A stretch of 64,000 nt of DNA from Bacillus sp. WMMC1349 (GTDB lineage: Bacteria; Bacillota; Bacilli; Bacillales; Bacillaceae): contig NZ_JABJUQ010000007.1 of NCBI RefSeq assembly GCF_013155385.1, positions 684,001 through 748,000 of the forward strand, written 5' to 3'. The notes beneath the pieces are model-generated. The model saw only the letters and a list, made by a program, of their open reading frames with translations. It was not told where the DNA came from and made no database searches. The translations under genes and the position numbers were made by a program. Shown piece after piece: positions 5,069 to 57,750 of the stretch. Position 1 is the stretch's first letter. The number at the start of each line of letters is the position of its first letter.

Positions 5069-5569
5069 ATGAAAATTGTCATAAAAGCAGGACTAATAAT
5101 TGCATTATGCTTTTATTTGTTAGTTCTTTCAAAATTAATTCTGTTCAAACACATTACGATTCCAGATATCATTGCTCACTTTACATTTAGTAGTGACGAA
5201 AGCCAGATCTGGCGCAGTCATAACTATATTCCTTTTAAGACGATCACAAATTATTTATTTGTGGCAAATAATTTACATGTACGGGTTGAAAATCTAGTTG
5301 GGAATATAGTCGGGTTTATACCATTTGGATTTTTTCTTCCGTTATTATCAAGGAAGTTTATTAGTATTAAGAGAGTCACGTTAGCAACATGTTGTTTAAG
5401 TTTAACTTTCGAGCTGCTCCAACTTATTTTTGGTTTTGGAAGTTTTGATGTTGATGATTTAATTTTAAATACACTTGGCGGAATGATAGGGTATATCCCC
5501 ATTAAACTGATTGGGATATACATAAACTATAGACAGGGACAACAAAAGAGTGAAGGATTTAATAGATAG
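5069..5569 (+). CDS. VanZ-like family membrane protein
   Basis: Membrane protein of 166 residues with a hydrophobic N-terminal helix (about residues 5-25) and three further hydrophobic segments. The stretch NLVGNIVGFIPFGF and the C-terminal SFDVDDLILNTLGG are the conserved features of the VanZ-like family, for which teicoplanin resistance has been reported in one member and function is otherwise mostly unknown. An AAGGAG box precedes the ATG. A hairpin follows the gene. A second VanZ-like protein with the same DVDDLILNT motif is encoded at 37242-37823. Standalone gene; role not inferable. Confidence 0.88.
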   Translation: MKIVIKAGLIIALCFYLLVLSKLILFKHITIPDIIAHFTFSSDESQIWRSHNYIPFKTITNYLFVANNLHVRVENLVGNIVGFIPFGFFLPLLSRKFISIKRVTLATCCLSLTFELLQLIFGFGSFDVDDLILNTLGGMIGYIPIKLIGIYINYRQGQQKSEGFNR

Positions 5570-14622: not shown

Positions 14623-14803
14623 ATGGCAAGCTCCTTTCACTGAGAATGTTTATTATGTAGTGTTTGCTTGTAGCATTTTTTTATGCAAAAGTTTAAAAAA
14701 GTAATTTACAATGAACTCCAGATGTAACAGTTTTGAAAGTACTTGATTAAAAAGGGGTTGTCTGAAAAGAGTAAAATTGTTAAAACTTATAATTCAAGAT
14801 CGA

Positions 14804-14976
14804 GGCTGTCCTGAAAGTCGTGTGGATGAATAAAAATTGGGGATTTTACTCCCTTTCCGCGAGCCTCCTCGGAGCTGGTTCCTTGCTCCTCTTGGGTCTC
14901 GCCTGACTCGCTGTTTCCGCGGGAGTCTCGCAATTCCCCCTGATTTATGTTGAAAAAGGACTTTTTAGACAGCTCC
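14804..14976 (-). repeat. MITE-like dispersed repeat, copy 1
   Basis: Element of 173 bases bounded by GGCTGTCCTGAAAGTC on the left and GACTTTTTAGACAGCTCC on the right, which are imperfect inverted repeats of each other. The interior has GC-rich blocks (GCGAGCCTCCTCGGAGCT and GGAGTCTCGC). Full-length copy, minus orientation relative to copy 2. Confidence 0.85.
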
Positions 14977-14994
14977 ATTTGTTAAACGTGAAAA

Positions 14995-28567: not shown

Positions 28568-29764
28568 ATGACGCCAGATTTAGAGTTGATCAAACCAAGC
28601 ATGCACACCCACGCAAATTTTTGGCAAAACCCATATTCTTTTTACGAAAAATTGCGAGCGATTGCACCAGTTTGGAAGGGAACAATCTTAAAACAATCCG
28701 GTTGGTATGTGACCGGGCATGAAGAAGCGACAATCATTTTAAGTGACAGCAAATTTCAAAATCGCATTCCTCTTCCAATCACATCGACAAAATACGAAGT
28801 CCTTAAAAATATACAACATCATATGCTATTATTTCAAAATCAGACTGATCATCGCCGTATCAGAACGTTAGTAAGTCAAGCATTCACATTAAAACAGGTT
28901 GAATCTCTTCGTCCGACTATTCGTGCAATCGCAGATGAGTTGCTCAATCAACTGGAAACGAAAAAACAAGTCGATATTGTCTCAGAATTTTCCTTTCCTT
29001 TAGCAACTCTTGTGATCGCAAACATATTAGGTGTCCCAAAAGAGGATAGATATCAGTTTAGAGAATGGACGGCAAGCTTAATTGAAACGATCGATTTCAC
29101 CCGCTCAAGAAAAACGTTAATCAATGGCGGTGCTACTGTCATAAAGTTGACGACATATTTCAGATCCCTGATTGAGAAACGAAAAAAAGAACCAAAAGAT
29201 GACCTCATCAGTACATTCGTTCATGGAGATTCTTTAACAGAAGAGGAATTATTGGCAACATGTATTTTGCTGATCATTGCCGGACATGAAACGACAGTAA
29301 ATTTAATCAGTAATGGATTATATTGTTTGATGAACCATCCCAGTCAGCTGATTGCTTTAAGAAAAAATCCAGCCCTGATTGAATCAGCTGTTGAAGAATG
29401 TTTGCGTTTTGAGAGTCCCACACAGCTAACAGCTCGAATCGTTTCTGAAGAATATCAGTTGAACGGCAACACCATGAAAAAAGGGGAACAGGTCTACATT
29501 CTTTTAGGAGCAGTCAATCGTGATCCGAAAACATTTACAAAACCTCATCTTTTCGACATGACGAGAAAACCGAATCCACATTTAGCTTTTGGTTATGGTT
29601 CTCACTTTTGTTTAGGTTCAACATTGGCACGTATTGAAGCACAAGTTGCTCTTTTGACATTAGTAGAACGTTTTCCTGAAATGCGGCTTGTGCAAACAGA
29701 TATTTCCTACCGTAAGCTATTTGGCTTTAGATCACTTGTAAAACTGCCTGTCACCATCACTTGA
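28568..29764 (+). CDS. bioI: Cytochrome P450 BioI (pimeloyl-ACP-forming)
   Basis: P450 (CYP107H-like) of 398 residues that in B. subtilis cleaves fatty acyl-ACP to pimeloyl-ACP, feeding biotin synthesis. The I-helix AGHETT, the K-helix ExxR (EECLRFE), and the heme motif FGYGSHFCLGS with the thiolate Cys near residue 346 are all present. ATG 28568 follows AGGAGG and is one base past the bioB stop; the frame extends further upstream inside bioB. With BioW, the cell has two entries to the pimelate moiety. A strong terminator ends the operon. Confidence 0.93.
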   Translation: MTPDLELIKPSMHTHANFWQNPYSFYEKLRAIAPVWKGTILKQSGWYVTGHEEATIILSDSKFQNRIPLPITSTKYEVLKNIQHHMLLFQNQTDHRRIRTLVSQAFTLKQVESLRPTIRAIADELLNQLETKKQVDIVSEFSFPLATLVIANILGVPKEDRYQFREWTASLIETIDFTRSRKTLINGGATVIKLTTYFRSLIEKRKKEPKDDLISTFVHGDSLTEEELLATCILLIIAGHETTVNLISNGLYCLMNHPSQLIALRKNPALIESAVEECLRFESPTQLTARIVSEEYQLNGNTMKKGEQVYILLGAVNRDPKTFTKPHLFDMTRKPNPHLAFGYGSHFCLGSTLARIEAQVALLTLVERFPEMRLVQTDISYRKLFGFRSLVKLPVTIT

Positions 29765-29765
29765 G

Positions 29766-29800
29766 AAGGGCTTGGTTGAATATAACCGAGCCCTTTTTTC
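29766..29800 (+). terminator. Hairpin terminator of the bio operon
   Basis: AAGGGCTTGGTT (29766-29777) pairs with AACCGAGCCCTT (29784-29795, one G-A mismatch-like position in the arm), six-base loop, followed by TTTTC. Confidence 0.9.
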
Positions 29801-29820
29801 ATTTCCCGAGAAATTTTTCG

Positions 29821-29851
29821 TTAACGTTTACGTAAACATTCATTATATAAT
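29821..29851 (+). promoter_or_regulatory. MerR-type promoter with 19-base spacer and palindrome
   Basis: TTAACG (29821-29826) and TATAAT (29846-29851) are separated by 19 bases, the over-long spacing that MerR activators correct by twisting DNA. The palindrome GTTTACGTAAAC (29826-29837) spans the spacer. It lies 31 bases before the merR gene, so autoregulation is likely. Confidence 0.8.
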
Positions 29852-29882
29852 AGATGTAGAAAAAGACATGGGAGGTAAGTCC

Positions 29883-30305
29883 ATGAACTGGATGAAAATT
29901 GACCAAGTGGCGAAACGAAGCGGTTTGACAAAAAGAACGATTCGTTTTTATGAAGAAATCGGTCTGCTTTCTGCACCAAAGCGTACTGATGGCGGAGTCC
30001 GTCTATATTCTGAAGACGATTTAGAAGAGCTTCAGAAAGTGGTTATGACAAAAGAGGTACTAGGATTTTCTTTGCAAGAACTGCAACAATTTATCGAAAC
30101 AAGCAAACAACTTGAGATGAATAAAGAAGGATATTTATTATCTTTAGATAAGAGAGAAAGAAAAGCAAAACTCGAGGAAATTCAAGATATGCTAAGAGAA
30201 CAAATGTGTATGATTAATAAAAAACTGGAAAACATTCATACATTTAAGCAGCGTCTTGAAGACATGGAAATGAAAGTCGAGAATGCGCTTAAACCGCTTG
30301 AGTGA
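29883..30305 (+). CDS. yfmP: MerR family regulator YfmP
   Basis: MerR-type regulator of 140 residues: winged helix (MKIDQVAKRSGLTKRTIRFYEEIGLL), the conserved RTDGGVRLYSEDDLEEL, then a dimerisation coiled coil with many Lys/Glu. One Cys (in QMCMIN) is not in a metal-site pattern. ATG 29883 has GGAGG seven bases upstream. It resembles B. subtilis YfmP, which controls the adjacent efflux gene yfmO. Here no efflux gene follows: a MITE copy begins ten bases after the stop, and then the convergent yfmM. The regulator thus seems to have lost its neighbour. Confidence 0.87.
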   Translation: MNWMKIDQVAKRSGLTKRTIRFYEEIGLLSAPKRTDGGVRLYSEDDLEELQKVVMTKEVLGFSLQELQQFIETSKQLEMNKEGYLLSLDKRERKAKLEEIQDMLREQMCMINKKLENIHTFKQRLEDMEMKVENALKPLE

Positions 30306-30314
30306 AGAACAAAT

Positions 30315-30488
30315 GGAGCTGTCTAAAAAGTCCTTTTTCAACATAAATCAGGGGGAATTGCGAGACTCCTGCGGAAACAGCGAGCCAGGCGAGATCCAAG
30401 AGGAGCAAGGAACGAGCTCCGAGGAGGCTCGCGGATTGCCCGCGGAAAGCGAGCAAATTCCCCAATTTTTAGGACTTTCAGGACAGCC
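30315..30488 (+). repeat. MITE-like dispersed repeat, copy 2
   Basis: Starts GGAGCTGTCTAAAAAGTCC and ends GACTTTCAGGACAGCC; 174 bases, nearly full-length with the ATTCATCCA block deleted near the right end. It fills the gap between the stop codons of yfmP and yfmM. Confidence 0.85.
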
Positions 30489-30499
30489 TTATTGTTCAA

Positions 30500-32056
30500 C
30501 TATAAAACTTTTGTTGTCCATGATTCACAGTTCCATGTCTCGGTTGCGATATCCATGTAAAACTCCGGTTCATGAGAAATGAGCAAAATCGAGCCTTTAT
30601 ATTCTTTTAGGGCTCTCTTTAATTCGTTTTTCGCCTCAACATCAAGATGATTTGTCGGTTCATCGAGAACGAGCAGATTTGTTTCTGAATTGATAAGCTT
30701 ACAAAGTCTGACTTTTGCTTTTTCTCCTCCGCTTAATACAGAAATTTTACTTTCAATATGGTTTGTGGTCAGTCCACATTTTGCTAGAGCTGCACGAATT
30801 TCATATTGTGTAAACGACGGGAACTCATTCCAGACTTCTTCAATACAAGTATTGTTATTGGTTTGTTTAACTTCTTGTTCAAAATAACCGATATGAAGAT
30901 ACTCACCGCGCTCAACTTCACCTGAAAGTGGAGAAATTTCACCGAGCAGGCTCCTTAGTAAAGTTGTTTTCCCAATTCCATTTGCACCATATAAGGCAAT
31001 TTTTTGGCCGCGTTCCATTTTCAAGTTTAATGGGCGGGATAGTGGTTCATCATAACCGATGACAAGGTTTTTTGTTTCAAAGATCAGTTTGCCTGATGTT
31101 CTTGCTTGTTTAAAGTGAAACTCCGGTTTTGGCTTTTCAGACGGCAGTTCGATCTTCTCCATCTTATCAAGCTTTTTTTGCCTGGACATTGCCATATTGC
31201 GCGTACTGACACGGGCTTTATTACGAGCCACGAAATCTTTTAGCTCAGAAATCTCTTGCTGTTGTTTTTTATAAGCTGCTTCAAGCTGTTGTTTTTTCAC
31301 TTCATAGACTTCGCGGAATTGATCATAATCACCGACATAACGGGTAAGTTCCTGATTTTCAACATGATAAATTAAATTGATCACACTGTTAAGAAACGGG
31401 ATATCATGAGAAATCAGAATAAACGCATTTTCATATTCTTGCAAATAGCGCTTCAGCCATTCGATATGCTGCTCATCCAAGTAGTTTGTTGGCTCATCAA
31501 GCAGAAGGATGTCAGGTTTTTCAAGAAGCAATTTTGCAAGCAGTACTTTTGTCCGCTGACCGCCGCTTAAATCTGTCACATCTCTGTCAAGACCAAGTTC
31601 TTGAAGTCCCAGACCACGGGCAATTTCTTCAACCTTTGCATCAATCGCATAAAAATCATTGTTTGTTAAAGCATCCTGAATGATCCCGACTTCCTCAAGC
31701 AATTTTTCGAGTTCATCTGCATCGACCTCACCCATTTTTCCGTAAATCGTGTTCATTTCTTCTTCCATCTTAAACAAATAATCAAAAGCATCCCTCAACA
31801 CATCACGGATCGACCGTCCACGTTCAAGTACTGTATGCTGGTCAAGATAGCCAATACGGACTTTTTTTGACCATGCTACTTTCCCTTCATCAGGTTCTAG
31901 TTTTCCTGTAATAATATTCATGAAGGTAGATTTTCCTTCACCATTTGCTCCGATCAAACCGACATGTTCTCCTTTTAGCAGTCGAAAGGAAATATCATGA
32001 AAGATCGCCCGGTCACCAAAACCGTGACTTAACTTTGTTACCGATAATAAACTCAT
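30500..32056 (-). CDS. yfmM: ABC-F ATPase YfmM
   Basis: Soluble ABC-F protein of 518 residues with two ATPase domains. Walker A sites are GANGEGKST and GANGIGKTT, signatures LSGGQRTK and LSGGEKAK, Walker B LLLDEPTNYLD and LVLDEPTNHLD. No membrane segments; belongs to the Ybit/YfmM branch thought to act on ribosomes. The longer frame has an extra nine codons; ATG 32056 with AGAGGTG six bases upstream gives the B. subtilis length. Convergent with yfmP across a MITE; divergent from yfmL. Confidence 0.92.
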   Translation of the reverse strand: MSLLSVTKLSHGFGDRAIFHDISFRLLKGEHVGLIGANGEGKSTFMNIITGKLEPDEGKVAWSKKVRIGYLDQHTVLERGRSIRDVLRDAFDYLFKMEEEMNTIYGKMGEVDADELEKLLEEVGIIQDALTNNDFYAIDAKVEEIARGLGLQELGLDRDVTDLSGGQRTKVLLAKLLLEKPDILLLDEPTNYLDEQHIEWLKRYLQEYENAFILISHDIPFLNSVINLIYHVENQELTRYVGDYDQFREVYEVKKQQLEAAYKKQQQEISELKDFVARNKARVSTRNMAMSRQKKLDKMEKIELPSEKPKPEFHFKQARTSGKLIFETKNLVIGYDEPLSRPLNLKMERGQKIALYGANGIGKTTLLRSLLGEISPLSGEVERGEYLHIGYFEQEVKQTNNNTCIEEVWNEFPSFTQYEIRAALAKCGLTTNHIESKISVLSGGEKAKVRLCKLINSETNLLVLDEPTNHLDVEAKNELKRALKEYKGSILLISHEPEFYMDIATETWNCESWTTKVL

Positions 32057-32192
32057 GTTTTGCACCTCTAATGTTTTTTGCATTCTCTAAGATTATATCG
32101 AACAGTTGGGGGACAATAAAAGAAAAATTGCGCTGCAGCTTTTGTTTTGAGATACTAAGAGCAGAAACAACCTGAGAATAAAGGAGAAAAAC

Positions 32193-33323
32193 ATGACAGA
32201 CAATTGGCCATTTTTAAATAAAGTCCAACCATTTATTAAAACAAATTGGGAAGCAGCAGGTTTTCAGCAACCGACTTCTGTTCAACATCACACAGCCGAG
32301 TCGATTTTAAAAGGGTGTGATATCATTGCTGAGTCACCGACCGGAACAGGTAAAACACTTGCCTATGTTTTACCTTTATTGGAAAAGATCAAACCGGATC
32401 AAAAACATGTTCAAGCCGTAATCATTGCACCCTCCAGAGAGCTTGTCATGCAAATATTCGATGTGATTGTTGAATGGAAAAAAGGATCTGATCTTAGAGC
32501 AGCTTCTTTAATCGGTGGAGCCAACATCAAAAAACAGCAAGAAAAGCTAAAAAAACACCCTCATATTATTGTTGGTACACCTGGGCGTGTATCTGAACTG
32601 ATCAAAATAAAAAAGCTGAAGATGCATGAAGTCAAAACGATTGTTCTTGATGAGACAGATCACCTACTGACTCCAGAGCATCGCGGTACGATTCAAGGAA
32701 TTATCAAATCAACCCTCAGAGATCGGCAGCTCCTCTGTTTTTCAGCTACATTAAGGAAAGAAGTCGAACAAGAGCTTAATGATCTGACAAATGAAGCAGA
32801 GCTTGTGCGAATAAAACGCACGAATGAAGAATCAACAAAAGTAAAACATCAATTTCTCGTCTGTGATCAGCGTGATAAAATTAAAATTTTGCAAAAGTTC
32901 GCCAGGCTAGAGGGCATGCATGCACTCGTCTTTGTCAAAGATATTGGCAATTTAACGGTGTACGCTGAAAAACTCAACTATCATCATGTTAATGTCGGTG
33001 TCCTTCATAGCGAAGCCAAAAAAATGGAGCGAGCGAAGATCTTACAAGCATTTGAAGCAGGAGAATTCCCGCTTTTATTGGCAACAGATATTGCAGCACG
33101 CGGCATCGACATTCAAGATTTACCATATGTCATCCATGCTGATTTACCAAATGAAGCAGGCTATATTCACCGCTCTGGACGAACAGGGAGAGCTGGAAAT
33201 GAAGGAATCGTGATTAGCCTTGTCAACCGTGGTGAAGCAGAAAGATTAACAAAACTAGCTAAGAAATTAGATATCAATCTGCAACCGATTGTTTATGAAA
33301 GAGGAAAAATGATTGAGAAATAG
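32193..33323 (+). CDS. yfmL: DEAD-box RNA helicase YfmL
   Basis: ATP-dependent RNA helicase core of 376 residues. Motif I ASPTGTGKT-like ESPTGTGKTLAY, Ia APSRELVMQ, GTPGRV, motif II as DETD (a natural variant of DEAD), III SATLR, V ATDIAARGIDI, VI HRSGRTGRAG. No extra RNA-binding domain at either end, as in B. subtilis YfmL, which takes part in ribosome assembly. ATG 32193 with AAAGGAG. Divergent from yfmM. The DETD variant is worth noting but common to this group. Confidence 0.9.
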   Translation: MTDNWPFLNKVQPFIKTNWEAAGFQQPTSVQHHTAESILKGCDIIAESPTGTGKTLAYVLPLLEKIKPDQKHVQAVIIAPSRELVMQIFDVIVEWKKGSDLRAASLIGGANIKKQQEKLKKHPHIIVGTPGRVSELIKIKKLKMHEVKTIVLDETDHLLTPEHRGTIQGIIKSTLRDRQLLCFSATLRKEVEQELNDLTNEAELVRIKRTNEESTKVKHQFLVCDQRDKIKILQKFARLEGMHALVFVKDIGNLTVYAEKLNYHHVNVGVLHSEAKKMERAKILQAFEAGEFPLLLATDIAARGIDIQDLPYVIHADLPNEAGYIHRSGRTGRAGNEGIVISLVNRGEAERLTKLAKKLDINLQPIVYERGKMIEK

Positions 33324-33327
33324 AAGG

Positions 33328-33356
33328 CTGCTCCTTAAATAGGGGCAGTTTTTTTG
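33328..33356 (+). terminator. Hairpin terminator after yfmL
   Basis: CTGCTCC (33328-33334) pairs with GGGGCAG (33342-33348), loop of seven, then eight-base T tract. Confidence 0.85.
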
Positions 33357-33549
33357 TCATCATTTAGATTGATTTAATCCGATTAATAAGTGGTATTTTA
33401 TGTTAATGTATAATATGAAAGGAGTTGTTAGAATTTTATGGGATGATATCAAGAGATTGTTAGTTGCTTTTTTCAGTGGCTGAAGCAGTCCATTCTAGTA
33501 TGGTAAAATTTTATAAATTCATCTGAATCAAAAGAAGGAAGGGATCGTA

Positions 33550-33972
33550 TTGAAAAATAAAAAAAGGACGATCATGGTTTCTACTTTGATTTTAGGTCTT
33601 ATTTTGAGCTTCAGTACGATTGGTCTCGCATATAGCAAGGGTTACTCCTTTGATCTGGGCTCTGCAATCGCGACAAGGACAGGTTACAATTATAATTTAG
33701 ACAACAAGTACACGACAATCACAGCTAAAGCAGATTCCTTTAATGTGCGTACTGGTCAACCATCAGCAAACGAACAGCAGTATGCGGTTTATATTGCGAA
33801 AAAATGGTCTTTTGAGACTCATAACACTGGTATATTAACAACTGGAAGAAGATACACAAAAAATGTAGGTGGAGTCAGTAGTGGGGACTATAGAGTGCAA
33901 GTGGTTAAAAAACTCCCAGCCCCCGATATTCCTGATGTCCATATAATAGGCGGAGGAAATGTTATACAATAA
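33550..33972 (+). CDS. Secreted hypothetical protein, possible bacteriocin-like
   Basis: Protein of 140 residues starting with TTG (33550) behind AAGGAAGGGA. A clear Sec signal peptide (KNKKRTIM, hydrophobic core, cut near residue 28, GLAYS) is followed by a mature part of about 110 residues rich in Thr, Tyr, Gly and Asn with alternating polar/hydrophobic strands, so a beta-sandwich is likely. No cysteine in the mature part. I do not recognise the family. The immediate association with an ABC ATPase and a large permease resembles lactococcin 972-type loci, where a Sec-exported beta-sandwich bacteriocin is followed by an ABC immunity system. That is analogy only. Confidence 0.7.
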   Translation: MKNKKRTIMVSTLILGLILSFSTIGLAYSKGYSFDLGSAIATRTGYNYNLDNKYTTITAKADSFNVRTGQPSANEQQYAVYIAKKWSFETHNTGILTTGRRYTKNVGGVSSGDYRVQVVKKLPAPDIPDVHIIGGGNVIQ

Positions 33973-33990
33973 GGTTAATGGAGAGATCAT

Positions 33991-34662
33991 ATGAGCGTTA
34001 TTCTATCAACAAATCAAATAGCCAAGTCTTTTGGTGAGGGTGCTTCGCTATTCTATGCGGTGCACCCTGCTTCAATTGCTATTGAGAATGGGTCTATTAA
34101 TGTGATCATGGGAAAGAGCGGCTCAGGAAAGTCTACTTTATTGAGTATGCTTGGAGGAATGGAACAACCTACTAAAGGTCAATTATTATTTCAGCAGCAA
34201 AGCTTTTATCAACTCCATGATGCGGCCCAAGCTGAAATTAGGGGTCATCATTTTGGTTTTGTCTTTCAAGCTTATCACTTAATTCCTGAACTTTCGGTAT
34301 TTGATAATCTCATATTGCCACTGATGATGAATAAGAAAAAATTCAATATGTCATATATTCGGGAACTTGCAGAACATTTAGGAATCGAACAAAAACTAAC
34401 TGCGTTTCCTTATCAGCTATCTGGTGGACAGCAACAAAGAACAGCAATCGCCAGAGCAATGGCAAACGACCCGGAGATCATTTTTGCAGATGAACCAACT
34501 GGAAATTTAGATACAAAAAACAGTCAACATGTCATTGATCTGTTGGTGAAGTTATGTAAAGAAAAACATAGAACTTTAGTGGTTGTTACACATGACGAAC
34601 ATTTAGTAGAAGAACCAGATCAGCTGTTTTTAATTGAAGATGGTGTACTAAAAACAAGATGA
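33991..34662 (+). CDS. ABC transporter ATPase, MacB/LolD type
   Basis: ATPase of 223 residues. Walker A GKSGSGKST, Q-loop in FVFQAYHLIPELSVFDNL, signature LSGGQQQR, Walker B IIFADEPTGNLD, H-loop VVTHDEH. The DEPTGNLD and FVFQxyhLip pattern puts it with the MacB/LolD/BceA subgroup that partners FtsX-type permeases and commonly serves peptide resistance or lipoprotein handling. Nineteen bases after the secreted protein and twelve before the permease: one transcription unit. Confidence 0.88.
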   Translation: MSVILSTNQIAKSFGEGASLFYAVHPASIAIENGSINVIMGKSGSGKSTLLSMLGGMEQPTKGQLLFQQQSFYQLHDAAQAEIRGHHFGFVFQAYHLIPELSVFDNLILPLMMNKKKFNMSYIRELAEHLGIEQKLTAFPYQLSGGQQQRTAIARAMANDPEIIFADEPTGNLDTKNSQHVIDLLVKLCKEKHRTLVVVTHDEHLVEEPDQLFLIEDGVLKTR

Positions 34663-34674
34663 AGGTGTTGTCTT

Positions 34675-37221
34675 ATGTTTTGGATGAAATTTGCCTTTCA
34701 ATCATTATTTCAGAGAAAAAAGCTGTTTTTTGTCATACTGCTTGTCATTGCCATTTCGATGATCTTTTTGATTATGGTAAACAGTGCAACAAATGATATA
34801 GTGACATTCACAAAAGAAAAGTCCTATGAAAAATACGGAGAACATCATGGGGTCATGAATGGTTTAACTGATAAACAGTTGAACAAGCTGAAGAACAATT
34901 CAAGTATAAAGAAAGCTGGGAGTATCTCTTTAGTTGGATATACAAAACAGGTTCATAACTCAAATTTGGGAGCAACGATAGGCTGGATGGATCAGGCTGC
35001 TCTTCAATTGGGACATATCGGTCTTTTAAAAGGAAGAATGCCTAAAGATCAACACGAATTAGCGATAGAGTCATATTTACAACAAGCTTTCAATGGAGAA
35101 AATCCACTTGGCAAAACAGTTAAACTAAAGATTGAAGGTATAGAAGAATCATTTAAAATAGTCGGCATCATTGAAAATTATTCAGCCAATTGGTCAGCTC
35201 CAGCTGATATTCAAAATGGTTATAATACCTACCCAAATATTTTTGTAAACCCAAAAAGTGTTCAAGCGAAATCTAATATACAAAAAAGCCTCATTTTTTC
35301 AGTCAAACAACACAAGGTGGAAGAAATCGAGAATAGCTTATATGAAAACTTTGCAAGTCATTTATCAAATATTGAACAGTTATATGCAAATGAAAACCTT
35401 TTTGAAGAAGGGTTAAAGAGATCTGAATTAATCGCAATGTTTTGCTTGCTGTTTTCAATCGTCTTAATATTAGGATCGATGCTTTGCTGCTATCAATTGT
35501 TTGAAGTGTTTTATCGTGATTATCGCAAAAAAATCGCAATATTAAGAGCTTACGGTGCAAGAAGATATCATTCCTTTCTGCTCATCTTTTATCAAAGTCT
35601 TATCATCATACTCATTAGCTTTTTAGTAGCATTTCCAATCGGCATACTTTTCAAGGGACAACTCCATTCTCAAAGATTGACTGATCTAAACGTTTTTTCT
35701 TCGATGGCAGAATCAATTCCAATTGTTATCATATGGACGGGCCTTTTATTTTGCTCATTATGTTTTACAGGATGGATGATCATGAGAAAAATAAATCAAC
35801 ATTCGATTGCCCACCATCTGAAAGGAAATCAGTTAACACCTAGAGGTTCTCGTCTATATCAGAAAATCGCCAATTTACCATTCAAATTAAAATCTTTAAT
35901 GATTCAATTGTTGTTTCATTGGAAATCAACTGTCCTTTTGACGGCAGTTTTGGCAAGTTCAATTTTGATGTTCTTTTTTACACAGTTAATTGCTGGTGAA
36001 ACACTTGGTCAACATGATAATCAAAAAACGCTTCATTATACCCTTGCTTCAAAACAAATGACGATTCAAGAGCAAGTAAACGGATTTATGATTGAAACGA
36101 ATCAATCTGTTTCCTTTCATTATCAAACAGCAGATGAACTCCTTCATTTTCCTGGTGTTCTGTATGTTGACAAATACCCGAATACACTTGAAACTACATT
36201 GTTGTTAACGAAACAACAGCTTTCACCTTATTTTGTATCTTGGATCAATGACAATAAACAGGATAATACAGACGGCGAAATTTCGGAAATTATGGTAGAC
36301 AATTTAAATATCCCTAAAAACCTTACCCCCATACCAAAGGTTCAGTTTGTTTTAGTCAATGATCGGGAACTTAGTGATCTTAAAAGTAGCTATCACATTG
36401 AAAAAAATGCAGTGGAGAAATTTAAAAAATCGAACACGGCATTCCTATTTCTTCCGAAAGCAGCTTTGAAAAATAGAATTTCCTCGCAAGATAATGTAAA
36501 AATCGGCAGAGTTGAGCAGACCAAAAAAAATGAGGAGCTTACATTTAAACATTGGGATTTTAAGGTTGGGAAGGTCATCAACGTACCCTTTCAAATCAAA
36601 ATGAATCAAGTTCCGATAGAACGCGACGGAATTACAGTTGCCATTTCTGAACGGGTTGCACACAAGCATCACATTTTTTCTGGATATAAACAATTGGTAA
36701 TTTATGCAGATCTTCATATGTCTAAAGAGAATAAGAAAGCACTTGCGAAAAAAGCGAAACAAATTGTGGCTTCTATTCCTGGTAGCATGTACGATTCAGA
36801 TGAAGAGCACACCAAAAAATATGAGGTCATTACGAACTTTCTTTCAATTCTTGGAATGATCTTATTTTTGACGACAACACTTTATGCGGCTTTATCATTG
36901 GCAGCTGTTATGTATTCGAAAGCCATACAAAGACAGACTGAATATGCAGTATATCGAGCGGTTGGTAAGAGTGTCACATCCATTTTGAAAGATTTGCTAA
37001 TAGAATTACTTGTTTATTTAATCATCGCGTTTCTCGTCAGCGGTCTGATCATTTGGATGATGATGTTGATAAGTCCTCCTGCTTCTGGTGTTTCTCATTA
37101 TTTGAGGTACTATTGGTATGCGGTTTTAAGTATTACTAGTTTTGCCGTGCTTGCGCTTCTTGTTCCATACTATAAAATAAAAAGAATGAGTATTTCTAAC
37201 TCGTTAAAAATTGATGAATAA
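34675..37221 (+). CDS. FtsX-type ABC permease with large extracytoplasmic domains
   Basis: Permease of 848 residues. The N-terminal helix (residues about 18-38) is followed by an extracytoplasmic MacB-like domain (to about 240), then three FtsX-type helices (about 250-365), a cytoplasmic stretch, a further helix near 415, a second extracytoplasmic region (about 440-710) and three C-terminal helices. This two-unit architecture equals LolCE/BceB-like permeases that act mechanically on substrates at the membrane surface. With the neighbouring ATPase it forms a complete transporter. It may confer immunity to the small secreted product upstream or export it, but the N-terminal signal peptide of that product argues against direct export. 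Confidence 0.85.
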   Translation: MFWMKFAFQSLFQRKKLFFVILLVIAISMIFLIMVNSATNDIVTFTKEKSYEKYGEHHGVMNGLTDKQLNKLKNNSSIKKAGSISLVGYTKQVHNSNLGATIGWMDQAALQLGHIGLLKGRMPKDQHELAIESYLQQAFNGENPLGKTVKLKIEGIEESFKIVGIIENYSANWSAPADIQNGYNTYPNIFVNPKSVQAKSNIQKSLIFSVKQHKVEEIENSLYENFASHLSNIEQLYANENLFEEGLKRSELIAMFCLLFSIVLILGSMLCCYQLFEVFYRDYRKKIAILRAYGARRYHSFLLIFYQSLIIILISFLVAFPIGILFKGQLHSQRLTDLNVFSSMAESIPIVIIWTGLLFCSLCFTGWMIMRKINQHSIAHHLKGNQLTPRGSRLYQKIANLPFKLKSLMIQLLFHWKSTVLLTAVLASSILMFFFTQLIAGETLGQHDNQKTLHYTLASKQMTIQEQVNGFMIETNQSVSFHYQTADELLHFPGVLYVDKYPNTLETTLLLTKQQLSPYFVSWINDNKQDNTDGEISEIMVDNLNIPKNLTPIPKVQFVLVNDRELSDLKSSYHIEKNAVEKFKKSNTAFLFLPKAALKNRISSQDNVKIGRVEQTKKNEELTFKHWDFKVGKVINVPFQIKMNQVPIERDGITVAISERVAHKHHIFSGYKQLVIYADLHMSKENKKALAKKAKQIVASIPGSMYDSDEEHTKKYEVITNFLSILGMILFLTTTLYAALSLAAVMYSKAIQRQTEYAVYRAVGKSVTSILKDLLIELLVYLIIAFLVSGLIIWMMMLISPPASGVSHYLRYYWYAVLSITSFAVLALLVPYYKIKRMSISNSLKIDE

Positions 37222-37241
37222 TACAAAAAGGTGTGAATGGT

Positions 37242-37823
37242 GTGGCTTCAATGATTAATTTAGGGAAGGTCGGTTTTGTATTTGTCTTGCTTTATTTTGT
37301 ATATGATTTGATTAAACATCGAAAACAGACAAGCTTTATTAGAAAAGTCTTTTTTGCGAGCTTTTTGATTTTTATTTGTGGTGTTTTTCATTACACAATC
37401 GGTGGCATTTATTTTCCTCGGCAGAAAGAATTTGCACAATTCATTGTGCAGTTGATTCCTTTTTATTTTGTGAGTGACTGGGTCAAGATGTATCAGCAAG
37501 GGGGAGTTGATTTCTTTTTTTGGAACGCTGTTAAACTTACAGCACTCAATGTTTTGCTGCTTTTTCCATTAGGAGTTTATCTTCGAATTCTCTGGAAAGA
37601 AATAACTTTTAAAAAAGCGCTACTACTGTCTTTTCTGATGAGTTTGATCATTGAAAGCTTACAGCTTGGACTCTCCGCATTAGGTTTTATTGAGGGAAGA
37701 TCTTTTGATGTTGATGATTTGATTTTAAATACAATTGGCAGTATGTTTGGCTTTAGCCTTTGCCGTTATGTGCTAAGTTTATTGCCAAAAAAACGTTCTT
37801 ATCATACGTCTTCACGCTGGTAA
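37242..37823 (+). CDS. VanZ-like family membrane protein, second copy
   Basis: Membrane protein of about 193 residues with five hydrophobic stretches and the VanZ C-terminal block SFDVDDLILNTIGS. It begins eleven to twenty bases after the FtsX permease. GTG 37242 is chosen because AAGGTG lies six bases upstream; GTG 37233 and ATG 37251 are also in frame. Other VanZ-like proteins have been implicated in glycopeptide or lipoglycopeptide resistance. Its place in a putative peptide operon suggests accessory immunity. Compare the solitary paralogue at 5069-5569. Confidence 0.82.
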   Translation: MASMINLGKVGFVFVLLYFVYDLIKHRKQTSFIRKVFFASFLIFICGVFHYTIGGIYFPRQKEFAQFIVQLIPFYFVSDWVKMYQQGGVDFFFWNAVKLTALNVLLLFPLGVYLRILWKEITFKKALLLSFLMSLIIESLQLGLSALGFIEGRSFDVDDLILNTIGSMFGFSLCRYVLSLLPKKRSYHTSSRW

Positions 37824-37906
37824 AAACTAAAACTGTGTTTTAGCTCATAATGATTTGGCAATAGATCAAAACTAACCGTACCTATTTGAAAATGGCGGTG
37901 AAAAAA

Positions 37907-38689
37907 ATGAAGATGATGCCTTTAACATCTGTCAAAAGCGGGGTTATGGAAGAGTATGCAAACGATGTTTACGGATTAACGGTTCAAATTGTCAATGTTT
38001 ATTTTATTTTTAATCGTGATTCACGAGAAGTGGTGTTAATCGATGCGGGAATGCCAAAGTCTGCATCTTCCATACTTGAAGAAGCAGAAAGACAGTTTGG
38101 TGATTTCAAGCTGAAAGCGATTGTTCTGACACATGGACACTTTGACCATGTCGGGGCTTTGAAAGAGTTGTTGGATATATCGTCTGTTCCTGTATTCGCC
38201 CATCCGAAAGAGTTACCTTATTTAACTAAGAAAGCCGATTATCCGCCAGCAAAACCACAAATAAAAGATGGTCTTGTTGCCAAACTTTCACCATTATTTC
38301 CACGACATTCAATCGATATTTCAGCCAATGTTAAGCCTCTGCCTGAAGATGGATCTGTTCCGTTTCTTAATGGATGGAAATGGTTAGGGACACCTGGTCA
38401 TACACCAGGCCATATCTCGCTGTTTAGACAGTCAGACAGAACGTTAATCGCAGGAGATGCTGTGACAACAGTTGAACAAGAATCTCTCTTTGAAGTGGCT
38501 ATTCAAAAGCAAGAACTCAACGGTCCACCAGCCTATTTCACCATGGATTTCATGGAAGCAGCAGATTCAATCAGAAAGCTTGCCGAGTTACAACCCGCAT
38601 CTTTATTAACAGGCCATGGTGTCCCAATGACAGGCGACAACTTTTCACAGGAATTGTTCGATCTTTCAAATCGGCTTCCTGTTTCATAG
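37907..38689 (+). CDS. yflN: Metallo-beta-lactamase fold hydrolase YflN
   Basis: Zinc-dependent hydrolase of about 260 residues. The zinc motif LTHGHFDHVG (HxHxDH), the later GTPGHTPGH and AGDAV supply the remaining ligands, and LTGHG the last. Substrate unknown. ATG 37907 has GGCGGTG six bases upstream; a TTG at 37886 is in frame. In B. subtilis yflN neighbours nos (yflM), as here, although a MITE copy separates the two. A strong terminator follows. Confidence 0.87.
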   Translation: MKMMPLTSVKSGVMEEYANDVYGLTVQIVNVYFIFNRDSREVVLIDAGMPKSASSILEEAERQFGDFKLKAIVLTHGHFDHVGALKELLDISSVPVFAHPKELPYLTKKADYPPAKPQIKDGLVAKLSPLFPRHSIDISANVKPLPEDGSVPFLNGWKWLGTPGHTPGHISLFRQSDRTLIAGDAVTTVEQESLFEVAIQKQELNGPPAYFTMDFMEAADSIRKLAELQPASLLTGHGVPMTGDNFSQELFDLSNRLPVS

Positions 38690-38693
38690 TCTA

Positions 38694-38720
38694 AAACATT
38701 CAGTCTGCTGAATGTTTTTT
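38694..38720 (+). terminator. Hairpin terminator after yflN
   Basis: AAACATTCAG (38694-38703), TCTG loop, CTGAATGTTT (38708-38717), then TTT. Confidence 0.88.
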
Positions 38721-38782
38721 TAATCTGCAGAGTGATTGATTCGTGCCAAAATGTCAAAAGTGCAAAATTGGTTTATCAGGTA

Positions 38783-38950
38783 GTGTGGATAAATAAAAAT
38801 TTGGGAATTTGTTCGCTTTCCGCGGGCGATTGGCGAGCCTCCTCAGAGCTCGTTCCTTGCTCCTGTGGGGTCTTGCCGGGCTTGCTGTTCCCGCAGGAGT
38901 CTCGCAATTCCTCCTGATTTATGTTGAAAAAGGATTTTTTAGACAGCTCC
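38783..38950 (-). repeat. MITE-like dispersed repeat, copy 3
   Basis: From GTGTGGATAAATAAAAAT to AGACAGCTCC. The left terminal inverted repeat (GGCTGTCCTGAAAGTC) is missing, so this copy is truncated at one end. It lies between yflN and nos. Confidence 0.8.
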
Positions 38951-39122
38951 CTAGTTGAAAGGCGTAAGACAAAGTTTAGGGAATCTGAAGACCGACCCGT
39001 CAACAGCCGGAGTTAAACCTGAATCTGTAGATCTAAATCTTAAAAATGAAACTTTTTATTGTTATTTTTAGGTTTTAAAATAAGCTTGAGATAGATACAA
39101 TGATACAGCGGAAGGAGAGATT

Positions 39123-40184
39123 GTGGTGGATGAACAGCAAAAAGTTTGGAATGAAGCCAGTACCTTTATTGAAGCATACTGCGGGGAACTGAATAAATCT
39201 GCTGAGGAGAAGCAAGCGCGATTACAGAATGTTAAAAACGAAATCATCGAAACCGGTAGTTACACCCATACGAAAGAAGAGTTAGAGCATGGAGCGAGAA
39301 TGGCTTGGAGAAACAGTAGCCGCTGTATTGGCCGGTTGTTTTGGAACTGTCTTTCAGTCATTGACAAACGGGATGTTCTGACAGAAGAAGATGTGCGCGA
39401 GGCGTTATTTTACCATATTCAAGTTGCGACAAATGGCGGAAAAATTAAGCCATTTATTACGATTTTCCCCCCTAACAAGGTGAAGATTTGGAACCAACAG
39501 TTGATTAAATATGCTGGATATGAGACAGAAAATGGTGTAATTGGTGACCCAGCTACAATTGAGTTGACAAAGATGTGTGAGGCGCTTGGTTGGAGAGGGG
39601 AAAAAACGCCTTTTGATCTGCTTCCACTTGTTTTTCAAGTTGATGGTAACGGTCCTGTTTTGTATGAATTGCCAAGGTCGATCGTCCAAGAGGTTCACAT
39701 TACACATCCTGAAATCGCTGCTTTTCAATGTTTAGAGCTGAAATGGTATGCTGTGCCAATCATTGCTGATATGAAGCTAGAAATCGGGGGGATACAATAT
39801 CAAACTGCTCCCTTTAACGGCTGGTATATGGCAACAGAAATTGGTGCGCGTAATTTTGCAGATACAGATCGATATAATATGCTCGAAAAAGTGGCGGCAA
39901 TCATGGGGCTTGATACAACACAAACCACTTCATTATGGAAAGACAGGGCTCTTGTTGAATTAAACAGGGCTGTTCTTTATTCATACAAAAAAGCAGGTGT
40001 TAGTATTGTTGATCACCATACAGCAGCAAGTCAATTTAAGCGGTTTGAAGAGCAAGAAGCGGAAGCGGGCCGTGAGTTAGCTGCCAGCTGGACTTGGCTG
40101 ATTCCTCCGTTATCACCGGCAGCAACGCATATTTTTCATCAATATTATCAAAATAAGATTCTCAAACCTAATTTTTTTAAATAG
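39123..40184 (+). CDS. nos: Nitric oxide synthase oxygenase
   Basis: Bacterial NOS of 353 residues, heme- and pterin-containing, making NO from arginine without its own reductase domain. The heme-thiolate Cys is C68 in [13 protein letters not shown]; the substrate/pterin parts [15 protein letters not shown] and [11 protein letters not shown] are conserved. GTG 39123 with AAGGAGAG upstream. In Bacillus NO protects against oxidants and antibiotics (known). Located between yflN and yflL as in B. subtilis, with an SdpIR insertion on its right. Confidence 0.95.
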
Positions 40185-40341
40185 AATGATCAAAATGTTT
40201 TCTAATAGAAGTGGGGATGAGGACTGTTCTGCAGCTGGAAAGCCAAAAGCCGTTTTAATGTGTTGATTCCTTTTTTTTTTTGAGCCATTTTTGCATTTTT
40301 ACTTGAAGTGCATCAGGCATATTTACTTCCTCAACCGCAAT

Positions 40342-40456
40342 GGGGCTGTCCTGAAAGTCGTGTGGATGAATAAAAATTGGGGAATTTGCTCGCTTTCCGC
40401 AGGAGTCTCGCCCTTCCCCCTGATTTATGTTGAAAAAGGACTTTTTAGACAGCTCC
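40342..40456 (-). repeat. MITE-like dispersed repeat, copy 4 (internal deletion)
   Basis: Both ends intact (GGGGCTGTCCTGAAAGTCG and GACTTTTTAGACAGCTCC) but only 115 bases long: the central GC-rich blocks are deleted. Confidence 0.85.
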
Positions 40457-40547
40457 TTGATAGGCAACTTCTAAATAATCTAGAGCAAAATTGATAAAAT
40501 TAATCATTCAAGATTGCTAATATATCAGTGTTTATTAACGTGAAAAA

Positions 40548-40584
40548 GGTGCCCAATAGTCAAAAATGGACTTACTGGACAGCC
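40548..40584 (-). terminator. Palindromic repeat terminator, copy 2 (after sdpI)
   Basis: GGCTGTCCAGTAAGTCC paired with GACTATTGGGCACC when read on the minus strand, ending in CCTTTTTCA. It begins six bases beyond the stop codon of sdpI. Confidence 0.75.
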
Positions 40585-40589
40585 TTTGT

Positions 40590-41240
40590 TTACTTTTTAT
40601 GAAAACCCATTTCTTGTCGATATAAAACATAAGAATAAACATAAGGAGCAAAAACGGTTATTAAAATTAAAGCCACTATGGCTATATTTGCATTTTCACC
40701 AATTGGGAACAAACCGTTTATTGCAATGAGAATTCCTGCAATTGTAAACATCTTTGAAGCAAATCTGTGGGTTTTTTTCCAAACTGTATCACTGCTTAAT
40801 GTCCAAGGATTTTTAATACCGACAAAGAAATTGGAACGCACTCTTGGGAGGTAATTTCCAATGACGATCAAAATCGCTCCTACCAGTACTGGGACAAAGC
40901 TTCTCATTGGAACATGATATCCAAGTCCAGTCAGGACGAGCAACAAATTGAGTACAGAAAATAACAGCAGCATGGCATTTACGATAATGTGATATGTTTT
41001 TGAAAAGAGTGCTAAATTTTTTTTGCGTGGTTCTAATTTAGGCGTTAAAATCATCACCGCATATACAAATATAAGCAATCCCAACATTAATAACATCGCT
41101 TCTGCTTTTGTCGCATATTGATCAACCTCACCTGAGAATGACCAATGGATCGGAATATGGTTAGAAAGATAAGGGTATGAAAATCCCCACAATAGTATAT
41201 TCATGAAAATAATTAATAGTGAAACGATATGCTTTTTCAT
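40590..41240 (-). CDS. sdpI: SdpI-type immunity membrane protein
   Basis: Six-helix membrane protein of 216 residues. The N-terminal LSNHIPIHWSFSGEVDQYATK is the DUF1648 motif and the C-terminal part (VRSNFFVGIKNPWTLSSDTVWKKTHRFASKM) is the SdpI domain. In B. subtilis SdpI protects against the SdpC cannibalism toxin and sequesters SdpR at the membrane. Here it overlaps the sdpR-like gene by four bases, but no sdpABC genes are in the window, so the pair probably defends against toxin from others or acts as a stress sensor. Confidence 0.92.
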   Translation of the reverse strand: MKKHIVSLLIIFMNILLWGFSYPYLSNHIPIHWSFSGEVDQYATKAEAMLLMLGLLIFVYAVMILTPKLEPRKKNLALFSKTYHIIVNAMLLLFSVLNLLLVLTGLGYHVPMRSFVPVLVGAILIVIGNYLPRVRSNFFVGIKNPWTLSSDTVWKKTHRFASKMFTIAGILIAINGLFPIGENANIAIVALILITVFAPYVYSYVLYRQEMGFHKK

Positions 41241-41902: not shown

Positions 41903-42029
41903 AGAGAACACCCCTTTTCCTCTATGCTATCATATTTCCCATTTTAATCGCACGGTCTAGACATGAAGAGTTGAAAAACGTCGGCACAAACAAGAATGCC
42001 GAATTGAAGACAAGGCGGGTTTCGGAGGA

Positions 42030-42125
42030 GGAGCTGACTAAAGAGTCCTTGTTCACATGAATCAGGGGGAAGGGCGAGACTCCTGCGGAAAGCGAGCAAA
42101 TTTCCCGATTTTTATTCATCCACAA
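42030..42125 (+). repeat. MITE-like dispersed repeat, copy 5 (degenerate)
   Basis: From GGAGCTGACTAAAGAGTCC to TTCATCCACAAAACACCCC. About 96 bases; the right terminal repeat is degraded and the middle deleted. Confidence 0.7.
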
Positions 42126-47918: not shown

Positions 47919-48069
47919 GAGCTGTCTAAAAAGTCCTTTTTCAACATAAATCAGGGGAATTGCGAGACTCCTGCGGAAACAGCGAGCCAGGCGAGACCCC
48001 GCGGATCGCCCGCGGAAAGCGAGCAAATTCCCCAATTTTTATTCATCCATAAGACTTTTAGGACAGCCC
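47919..48069 (+). repeat. MITE-like dispersed repeat, copy 6
   Basis: Starts GAGCTGTCTAAAAAGTCC and ends GACTTTTAGGACAGCCCC; 151 bases, good terminal repeats, some middle sequence lost. Confidence 0.85.
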
Positions 48070-53260: not shown

Positions 53261-53371
53261 GCAGAGAAAAAAAGCTTCCTTCTCAACATGCATCAGAGGG
53301 AATTGTGAAACTCCTGCAGAAAGTGAGCAAATTTCTCAATTTTTATTCATCCATACTTTTAGGACACTCCC
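53261..53371 (+). repeat. MITE-like dispersed repeat, copy 7 (degenerate)
   Basis: Recognisable inner parts (CTCAACATGCATCAGAGGGAATT and AATTTTTATTCATCCA) and a right end AGGACACTCCC. The left terminal repeat is not recognisable. The oldest-looking copy. Confidence 0.6.
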
Positions 53372-54268: not shown

Positions 54269-55855
<1,587 letters not shown>

Positions 55856-56109: not shown

Positions 56110-57750
56110 ATGTCAATACGTAATGTAGTAGTTAATGGTAGTTTTGAAACAGGGACACTAGCACCTTGGGTTGGTCAGAATGCAATTGCTACAACTCAAT
56201 TTTCCCACTCAGGTTTTTGGTCGGCTAGGTTATTAGGGGGCAATGTAGTTTCATTTATAGCCCAATTTGTTCCTGTAGATGAGGGAGAACAATTTGAGTT
56301 CCTTGTTTCATTGGCGAAATCAGGATTTTTACCATCACCTCATGTGCACATTCAAGTTTCTTATTTTGATAGCATGTTTAATCATTTAGGGCAAGGACTC
56401 TTTGTTGATATTCCATTTAATAGATTACCAGTTGTGGAAAATAACACTTGGCTTGAAGTCTATCGAACGACTGAAGCGGCTCCAGCAGGCGCTACAATGG
56501 CATTTATTTTAATTAATACTTTACCGCAACTGGGAACAGCGAACGTTATAGTAGATGATGTTGCTCTATTAGATATTGAGGTTAGTGCTCCAACAGGAGC
56601 AACGGGACCAACGGGGCCAACAGGACCAACAGGACCAACGGGACCGACGGGAGCAACAGGACCGACCGGACCAACGGGACCAACGGGACCAACCGGACCG
56701 ACCGGACCAACGGGACCAACGGGACCAACGGGACCAACAGGACCAACGGGACCGACCGGACCAACGGGACCAACAGGACCGACCGGACCAACGGGACCAA
56801 CAGGACCGACCGGACCAACGGGATCAACAGGACCGACCGGACCAACGGGACCAACAGGACCGACCGGACCAACGGGACCAACCGGACCAACGGGGCCAAC
56901 GGGGCCAACAGGACCAACGGGACCAACCGGACCGACCGGACCGACGGGACCAACAGGACCAACGGGACCAACCGGACCGACCGGACCGACGGGACCAACG
57001 GGACCAACAGGACCAACCGGACCGACGGGACCAACGGGGCCAACAGGACCAACGGGACCAACCGGACCAACCGGACCGACCGGACCAACCGGACCGACGG
57101 GACCAACGGGGCCAACAGGACCAACAGGACCAACAGGACCGACCGGACCAACGGGACCAACAGGACCAACGGGACCGACCGGACCAACGGGAGCAACAGG
57201 ACCAACCGGACCAACGGGGCCAACGGGGCCAACAGGACCAACGGGACCAACAGGACCGACCGGACCGACGGGACCAACAGGACCAACGGGACCAACAGGA
57301 CCGACCGGACCGACGGGACCAACGGGACCAACAGGACCAACCGGACCGACGGGACCAACGGGGCCAACAGGACCAACGGGACCAACAGGACCAACCGGAC
57401 CGACCGGACCAACCGGACCGACGGGACCAACGGGGCCAACAGGACCAACAGGACCAACCGGACCGACCGGACCAACGGGACCAACAGGACCGACCGGACC
57501 GACCGGACCAACGGGACCAACGGGACCAACAGGACCAACGGGACCGACCGGACCAACGGGACCAACAGGACCGACCGGACCAACCGGACCAACGGGGCCA
57601 ACGGGGCCAACAGGACCAACAGGGCCAACAGGACCAACAGGACCGACGGGACCAACGGGACCAACGGGACCAACGGGACCGACCGGACCAACCGGACCAA
57701 CCGCAGGGGCCGGAGGATTGGTTCAACTACGCCAGTTTCTTAACCAATAG
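56110..57750 (+). CDS. Collagen-like protein with about 123 nearly uniform GPT triplets
   Basis: Protein of 546 residues. The N-terminal 160 residues are a paralogue of the preceding protein's N-domain ([28 protein letters not shown]). Then follow about 123 Gly-X-Thr triplets, almost all GPT with only three or four GAT/GST. It ends with [15 protein letters not shown]; there is no globular C-domain, so trimer nucleation would have to come from the N-domain or from the other protein. AGGAGG stands 13 bases before the ATG. The nine-base DNA repeats invite slippage. Confidence 0.87.
56593..57705. repeat. Nine-base tandem repeat tract (GGA CCA ACN)
   Basis: About 123 tandem nine-base units coding Gly-Pro-Thr, with third-base variants (GGA/GGG, CCA, ACA/ACC/ACG). 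Larger super-repeats are visible where the same order of variants recurs. Both strands are open in several frames because the repeat contains no stop. Confidence 0.95.

Follow-up and report, generated by a model that had tools for sequence, protein, structure and literature searches.

Gene content of the locus

The window analysed here is a stretch of 64,000 nucleotides from the 4.51-Mb genome of Bacillus sp. WMMC1349, and the nearest named match to it is Bacillus changyiensis (L008). All four open reading frames (ORFs) that a sequence-only reading had placed at 33550..37823 are present there on the forward strand, with 11–18 bases between successive ORFs. The first (33550..33972, 140 aa, TTG start) encodes a small protein characterized by profile searches and hydropathy; the second (33991..34662, 223 aa) encodes an ABC ATPase of a LolD/MacB/L_ocin_972-like type, recognized by Pfam and NCBIfam; the third (34675..37221, 848 aa) encodes a double FtsX permease; and the fourth (37233..37823, 196 aa, GTG start) encodes a VanZ protein. 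The Pfam matches are ABC_tran for gene 2, FtsX for gene 3, and VanZ for gene 4. Outside this cassette, Pfam identifies a DEAD-box helicase to the left (32193..33323, forward strand), which we take to be yfmL, and a metallo-beta-lactamase-fold protein to the right (37886..38689, forward strand), presumably yflN. The helicase gene adjoins the cassette in a second genome, G013, and lies several genes away in G018 and G027; the metallo-beta-lactamase-fold gene follows directly on the right side in both G013 and G018, whereas G027 has one extra ORF between it and the cassette. Because the same set is found in other genomes with different neighbours, the tight linkage proposed for the four genes reflects more than chance.

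Rfam returned 0 matches at gathering score in window positions 29000–41000, and a promoter/terminator scan stayed near chance (24 found versus 18.3 expected, sd 3.8). Alignment of the upstream regions yielded no nameable motif, and no regulator or quorum-type element was recognized at the cassette. Elsewhere in the window, an intergenic repeat of roughly 60–200 nt occurs in both orientations (14787–14983, 30315–30471, 38794–38950, 40338–40456, 42029–42124, 47919–48049, and 53269–53366); its matched pieces are 71–95% alike, it is present in L051 too, and it resembles a small element of mobile or palindromic type. Tandem collagen-like GXT-repeat proteins are encoded at 54269–55855 and 56110–57750, the second with a very long, nearly perfect GPT repeat.

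The small protein has a single hydrophobic segment by hydropathy (residues 8–26), and its mature part, taken to begin after ..GLA, would comprise 113 residues. This part contains no cysteine and its commonest residues are Gly (12), Thr (11), and Tyr (9), in line with the secreted, cysteine-free, Thr/Tyr/Gly-rich product first described. Across 10 aligned rows (G013 is represented twice, and the Paenibacillus cellulosilyticus copy introduced below is left out), every sequence is Cys-free and basic (pI 8.1–10.1), 14 columns are invariant, and the C-terminal residue is always Gln (..GxGx[ILV]xQ), as it also is in the P. cellulosilyticus copy. The window protein matched nothing significant in Pfam (best E 0.25) and nothing in NCBIfam at E ≤ 1 or at E ≤ 10; the best Pfam value over all rows (E 0.0065) was likewise not significant. 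The 10 rows together matched seven NCBIfam families at E ≤ 10, with a best E of 0.0022 in one row of 10 and none significant, and separate searches of PDB sequences gave E 5.7, no match, and E 4.1, none of them significant. Pfam, NCBIfam, and profile comparison revealed no significant similarity to known bacteriocins. Judged by these searches, the family appears so far unnamed and distinct from known ones, which agrees with the initial suspicion of an undescribed secreted family. Two AlphaFold2 models, for which three sequences were used, show only beta structure beyond the signal, with mean pLDDT values of 49.6 and 50.9; a Foldseek search of the PDB with the first of these low-confidence models returned 0 hits at E ≤ 0.001.

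The window ATPase scores best with the NCBIfam model LolD (210 bits), consistent with its earlier assignment to the LolD/MacB type, and next with L_ocin_972_ABC (187 bits). Both scores lie below the NCBI cut-offs, and the ATPase is below the cut-off of all 25 NCBIfam models among the matches listed. The permease matches PF02687 (FtsX) in two stretches, with 56.8 bits versus a gathering score of 25.5. It has 8 hydrophobic segments and two long gaps between them, at residues 36–251 and 440–717; on hydropathy, these gaps would correspond to the two large outer domains attributed to this protein. Profile comparison matched it to YtrF (9o9x, E 1.1e-4), YbbP (9ge6, E 7e-4), and MacB (5gko, E 1e-3). 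PADLOC gave no match for the small protein, the permease, or VanZ, and its matches of the ATPase look like generic ATPase similarity.

The fourth gene proved VanZ-like, as proposed, with a PF04892 match at E 2.4e-22 and 80.3 bits versus a gathering score of 30.1. Its product carries the ExxQ and DxDDxxxN motifs; in the available part of PMC12419801, ExxQ and [DN]xDDxxxN are described as proposed active-site residues of VanZ-1 and related families. Both motifs are kept in 8 of 8 complete cassette copies, and the pattern around the helix-2 Asn is kept in 7, the P. cellulosilyticus copy being unmatched. A second VanZ-like gene in the window (5069–5569) is 27% identical to the cassette VanZ and has no adjoining ABC gene among ORFs of at least 120 aa.

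Recurrence, joint transfer, and loss

A single-sequence search found the small protein in 5 of 100 relatives and in 4 of 44 genus genomes, counting the window's own. Profile searches found it in 5 of 80 family genomes, in 4 of 398 genomes of a class sample (E ≤ 0.001), and in 5 of 397 genomes of an order sample (E ≤ 0.01); the family, class, and order samples overlap, and each includes the window genome. Searching by tblastn with the small proteins of two relatives revealed one further copy, in P. cellulosilyticus NZ_CP054613.1, a 2.7-Mb replicon filed as a plasmid, which the window permease also matches. A plasmid search with the window small protein gave no match, the P. cellulosilyticus record included. 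Ten loci are intact: those of the window, G013, G018, G027, G055, G396, G150, G515, G551, and P. cellulosilyticus. Excluded were G503 and G649, whose small genes are damaged (see below), and G383, because its match is weak (20.5 bits) and partial and the genome has no permease match; it is the sole small-protein match lacking a permease.

The ATPase and permease genes are clustered with the small gene in all 10 intact loci, and a VanZ gene accompanies them in 9, running off the contig end in G515. The exception is G150, where a 429-aa multi-TM protein takes the place of VanZ and no VanZ lies in the 13.65-kb stretch examined. The expectation that VanZ would be unusual in such an operon is not borne out in this family, given this count, and is weakened by a published case, ysaA-ysaDCB (PMC7438565, as far as the source is available). 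The genes follow one another as small-ABC-FtsX-VanZ in the window, G013, G018, and G027, and as small-VanZ-ABC-FtsX in P. cellulosilyticus, with VanZ/ABC and ABC/FtsX overlapping. In G055, G396, and G515, small-VanZ is divergent from ABC-FtsX; in G551, the small gene is divergent from ABC-FtsX-VanZ; and in G150 the order is small gene, 429-aa gene, ABC, FtsX. Gene order is thus varied while content is nearly constant, as expected of a functional unit.

The four cassette genes moved together between the relatives G018 and G027, in which the cassette occupies the same place. DNA identity between the two is 90.6% over the cassette (3999/4414 aligned bases) versus 78.2% over the counted flanking blocks (7275/9302), and the best-scoring high-identity segment starts 51 bases into the small gene and ends with the final base of the vanZ stop codon. 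The synonymous divergence (dS), calculated with our own Nei-Gojobori script, is 0.33 for the small gene, 0.25 for ABC, 0.31 for FtsX, and 0.29 for VanZ, versus 1.10–1.71 for seven flank genes. Because cassette dS is low compared to the flanks and the segment ends at the vanZ stop, VanZ is part of the transferred unit; the claim that this is accessory, transferred DNA is supported. The more closely related window/G013 pair displays no divergence jump at the cassette edges, either in the identity profile or in dS (0.09–0.25 in the cassette, 0.19–0.30 in three flank genes). In the two pairs tested, cassette dN/dS is 0.10–0.22 (0.05–0.10 in the tested flank genes), and therefore all four genes are under purifying selection. 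Distances among the four genes are correlated (Mantel r 0.74–0.96), as common descent alone would also produce. The small gene is doubled in G013, with copies 64% identical at the protein level and an ATPase-start remnant after the first copy; since the ATPase beside them is 96% identical to that of the window, the small gene was duplicated or swapped.

Further signs of mobility come from two loci. The G055 cassette has a full NamZ/YbbC-like gene (by eye) on one side and a second copy of that gene's 3′ part on the other (L012 5116–6351 and 10794–11324), as an insertion that duplicated roughly 0.5 kb of target might leave. The P. cellulosilyticus cassette is found near reverse-transcriptase and transposase-like ORFs (by eye). 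A phage origin was considered and rejected, given no match in phages or viral contigs and only weak, scattered PHROGs matches (best E 0.0015, in one of 10 rows).

Permease searches used a different alignment and threshold (E ≤ 1e-20) from the small-protein searches. The permease is present in 5 of 80 family genomes, the very five with the small protein; in 6 of 397 order-sample genomes, namely all five with a small-protein match (one broken) and G649; and in 5 of 398 class-sample genomes (own, G396, G150, G465, and G256), three of which have the small protein. The sequence-only reading had named wide occurrence of the ABC genes without the small protein as grounds for abandoning the proposed system; instead, the small protein accompanies the permease in 5/5, 5/6 (one broken), and 3/5 cases, respectively.

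In the few genomes where the genes separate, it is the small gene that is missing, truncated, or disrupted, while the permease is usually retained; no clear reverse case was seen. The permease is open in G503, whose small gene is in three pieces, in G649, which retains a truncated remnant, and in G465, where a profile search of the genome found no small gene; a profile search of G256 also found none, and there the permease itself is split. In all, 10 loci are intact, whereas three open permeases (those of G503, G649, and G465) lack an intact small gene beside them. VanZ proteins with a long C-terminal extension are carried by G465 and G256 (the latter by eye), and no VanZ was seen by eye in G503 or G649. 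Upstream of ABC-FtsX-VanZ in G465 (L028 6030–7456), an ECF-type sigma factor and a membrane partner are recognizable by eye, a possible stress regulator of this version that lacks the small gene. One-sided loss fits a toxin with its immunity functions, and also fits a resistance module with an accessory protein.

Relation to lactococcin 972 loci

The organization of the cassette, with a small protein bearing a Sec-type signal (by hydropathy), a clustered ABC ATPase, and a membrane protein with an FtsX-like part, is that of lactococcin 972 (Lcn972) loci. Lcn972 binds lipid II, and two further genes of its cluster are taken as immunity genes, according to the portion available of PMC4055356; that of PMC11796350 likewise gives lipid II binding and a presumed immunity role of the partner genes for loci of this type. 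The small protein might accordingly be a genuine lactococcin 972 family member that has diverged strongly, and the 187 bits of the window ATPase with L_ocin_972_ABC could be cited for such a relationship, which we nevertheless regard as highly improbable. PF09683 matched none of the 10 small-protein rows (six searched at E ≤ 1, then the other four), and an hhalign comparison of A7 with two real Lcn972 members gave a probability of 1.7% over one aligned column, with a target alignment of two rows only. We compared the partner genes with those of real PF09683 loci, found elsewhere in the window's own genome and in G151 and G206, two of whose proteins formed the hhalign target. The best family of the real partners is L_ocin_972_ABC or bact_immun_7tm, whereas the window ATPase is nearer LolD and the permease reaches 32 bits with bact_immun_7tm. 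Both window partners fall below the family cut-offs (187 against 254.85 bits for TIGR03608, 32 against 189.35 bits for TIGR01654), which are not sharp: two of four partners of real Lcn972 genes are also below them (the G151 ATPase, 247.9 versus 254.85, and the G206 membrane protein, 133 versus 189.35), the other two being above. Membership was thus rejected on the small-protein profile searches, the profile-profile comparison, and the partner families, the partner cut-offs alone being insufficient. The resemblance without clear match that had been noted from the sequence is one of organization only.

A true lactococcin 972 gene is present elsewhere in the window genome (G000:C7:2825694-2825864; L048 1342–1719; L051 6536–6913). 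It encodes 125 aa and matches PF09683 with 43.2 bits; downstream of it lie an ABC ATPase gene and an ORF of 657 aa. The contamination rating of this assembly is 5.56%.

Function of the cassette and comparison with known systems

VanZ lowers teicoplanin binding but not vancomycin binding, by a mechanism called unknown in the available part of PMC7146870. VanZ action on lipid II-type head groups has been proposed without experiment (PMC12419801, in part). In view of these findings, those on Lcn972-type proteins, and the kept VanZ motifs, the cassette is best read as encoding a bacteriocin-like protein that targets lipid-linked wall precursors, while ABC-FtsX and VanZ provide self-protection; we put the probability of this reading at roughly 0.45. 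The locus would then be a horizontally transferred weapon-and-self-protection cassette, working like a lactococcin 972 locus without being one. It is favoured by the recurrence of the gene set, the co-occurrence of small protein and permease, the joint transfer, the one-sided decay of the small gene, the diversified tandem copy in G013, and the Cys-free, basic character of all 10 rows. In this scheme, the small gene gives rise to a cationic, cysteine-free protein, probably all-beta if the models are correct, whose signal-like segment suggests secretion through Sec with cleavage by signal peptidase I. The protein would probably bind a lipid-linked wall precursor, of the lipid II or undecaprenyl-phosphate type, on the surface of neighbours. 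Because it has a Sec-type signal of its own, the transporter is more likely to serve protection or regulation than export, and the ABC ATPase and double FtsX permease would more likely pull the small protein off the producer membrane than export it. VanZ may act on the lipid carrier itself and so make the producer less sensitive. Against a weapon stand the lack of significant similarity to known bacteriocins, the lack of a recognized regulator, the weak G383 match in a genome with no permease match, the lack of VanZ in the G150 stretch examined, the split permease of G256, and the missing divergence jump in the window/G013 pair. In addition, the median pairwise identity is 40% for the small protein and 30% for both the permease and VanZ, so that, by this measure, the small protein appears to evolve no faster than its partners.

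The same steady conservation speaks for a resistance, or detoxification, module, in which ABC-FtsX and VanZ protect against foreign envelope-active peptides and the secreted protein serves as an accessory sensor, carrier, or decoy. This is the strongest rival, because the Ysa locus of Lactococcus lactis joins a small secreted YxeA-family protein, an ABC transporter, and a VanZ-domain membrane protein (PMC7438565, in part); the small protein might act here, by analogy, as YsaD might in YsaDCB/TCS-G with YsaA. The available part of that source connects the Ysa system with bacitracin and Lcn972 and, citing earlier work, with nisin. Retention of the permease where the small gene decays (G503 and G649) points in the same direction. 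We nonetheless consider detoxification appreciably less probable than self-protection. The small gene is normally kept, and the YxeA model TIGR01655 is absent among the seven families matched at E ≤ 10 by the 10 small-protein rows, on which ground YxeA family membership was rejected. In addition, no two-component genes were recognized by eye among the ORFs next to the cassette in the stretches read. BceB-type permeases have a single outer domain, whereas the cassette permease combines two long outer gaps with 8 hydrophobic segments.

Permeases of the FtsX/MacB type are capable of transmembrane mechanical work, and the cassette could accordingly encode an envelope-maintenance or signalling machine, in which the FtsX outer domains drive a secreted accessory factor for wall or teichoic-acid work and VanZ acts on the lipid carrier. 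The invariant last Gln, present in 10 of 10 rows and in P. cellulosilyticus, suggests a fixed docking end, and the available part of PMC12419801 links VanZ families with genes for peptidoglycan and exopolysaccharide. Such a machine seems unlikely, however, as patchy presence (only four genus genomes) and interspecies transfer are ill-suited to housekeeping. Somewhat less doubtful, though still improbable, is a more specific form of the self-protection reading. Here, the small protein would be a secreted, unmodified wall-precursor binder of a new class, VanZ a dedicated self-immunity enzyme that trims or alters the head group of the bound lipid carrier, and the FtsX transporter the means of clearing the remainder; in that case, glycopeptide clusters would have borrowed their VanZ from the immunity genes of such cassettes.

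VanZ is widespread and its mechanism is given as unknown in the available parts of PMC7146870 and PMC12419801; here, a mobile unit pairs it with one secreted protein and one transporter, and so offers a candidate natural ligand for testing VanZ. If the secreted protein is a weapon, it represents a new family that search tools based on known bacteriocins would miss; should it instead be a resistance component, the cassette is a second case, with unrelated parts, of a secreted protein combined with an ABC transporter and VanZ. Among the matches listed, open-access titles and abstract openings do not describe the combination of a small secreted protein, ABC-FtsX, and VanZ, save for the Ysa precedent (PMC7438565), and it is not mentioned in the available part of PMC12419801.

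In architecture the cassette recalls Ysa-type and lactococcin 972 loci; its secreted protein and its permease, as far as sequence comparison can tell, appear to form distinct families. With lcn972-orf2-orf3 and the streptococcin B locus scbABC, the cassette shares a small secreted protein (all-beta here in low-confidence models), an ABC ATPase, and a membrane protein, and also the persistence of partners without the small gene, scbBC alone being found in 157 of 571 pneumococcal genomes (PMC11796350, in part). It differs from both in that the small proteins have no detectable relation, the ATPase is nearer LolD, the permease is a double FtsX protein, and VanZ is added. The L. lactis YsaDCB/TCS-G system with YsaA likewise brings a small secreted protein, an ABC transporter, and a VanZ-domain protein together in one locus (PMC7438565, in part), but Ysa has a YxeA-family protein, a Bce-like transporter, and a two-component system, and the cassette lacks a YxeA match; the contrast extends to YxdLM-YxeA of B. 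subtilis. A LolD/MacB-like ATPase and FtsX domains are held in common with MacB, LolCDE, YtrF, and YbbP-type transporters, although these matches are weak and the permease appears to form a distinct family that co-occurs with the secreted protein. Finally, the cassette VanZ resembles the VanZ-1 branch of the lipocone superfamily in its PF04892 score above the cut-off and in its ExxQ and DxDDxxxN-type motifs, and differs from it in residing within a transferred unit together with a secreted protein and an ABC-FtsX transporter.
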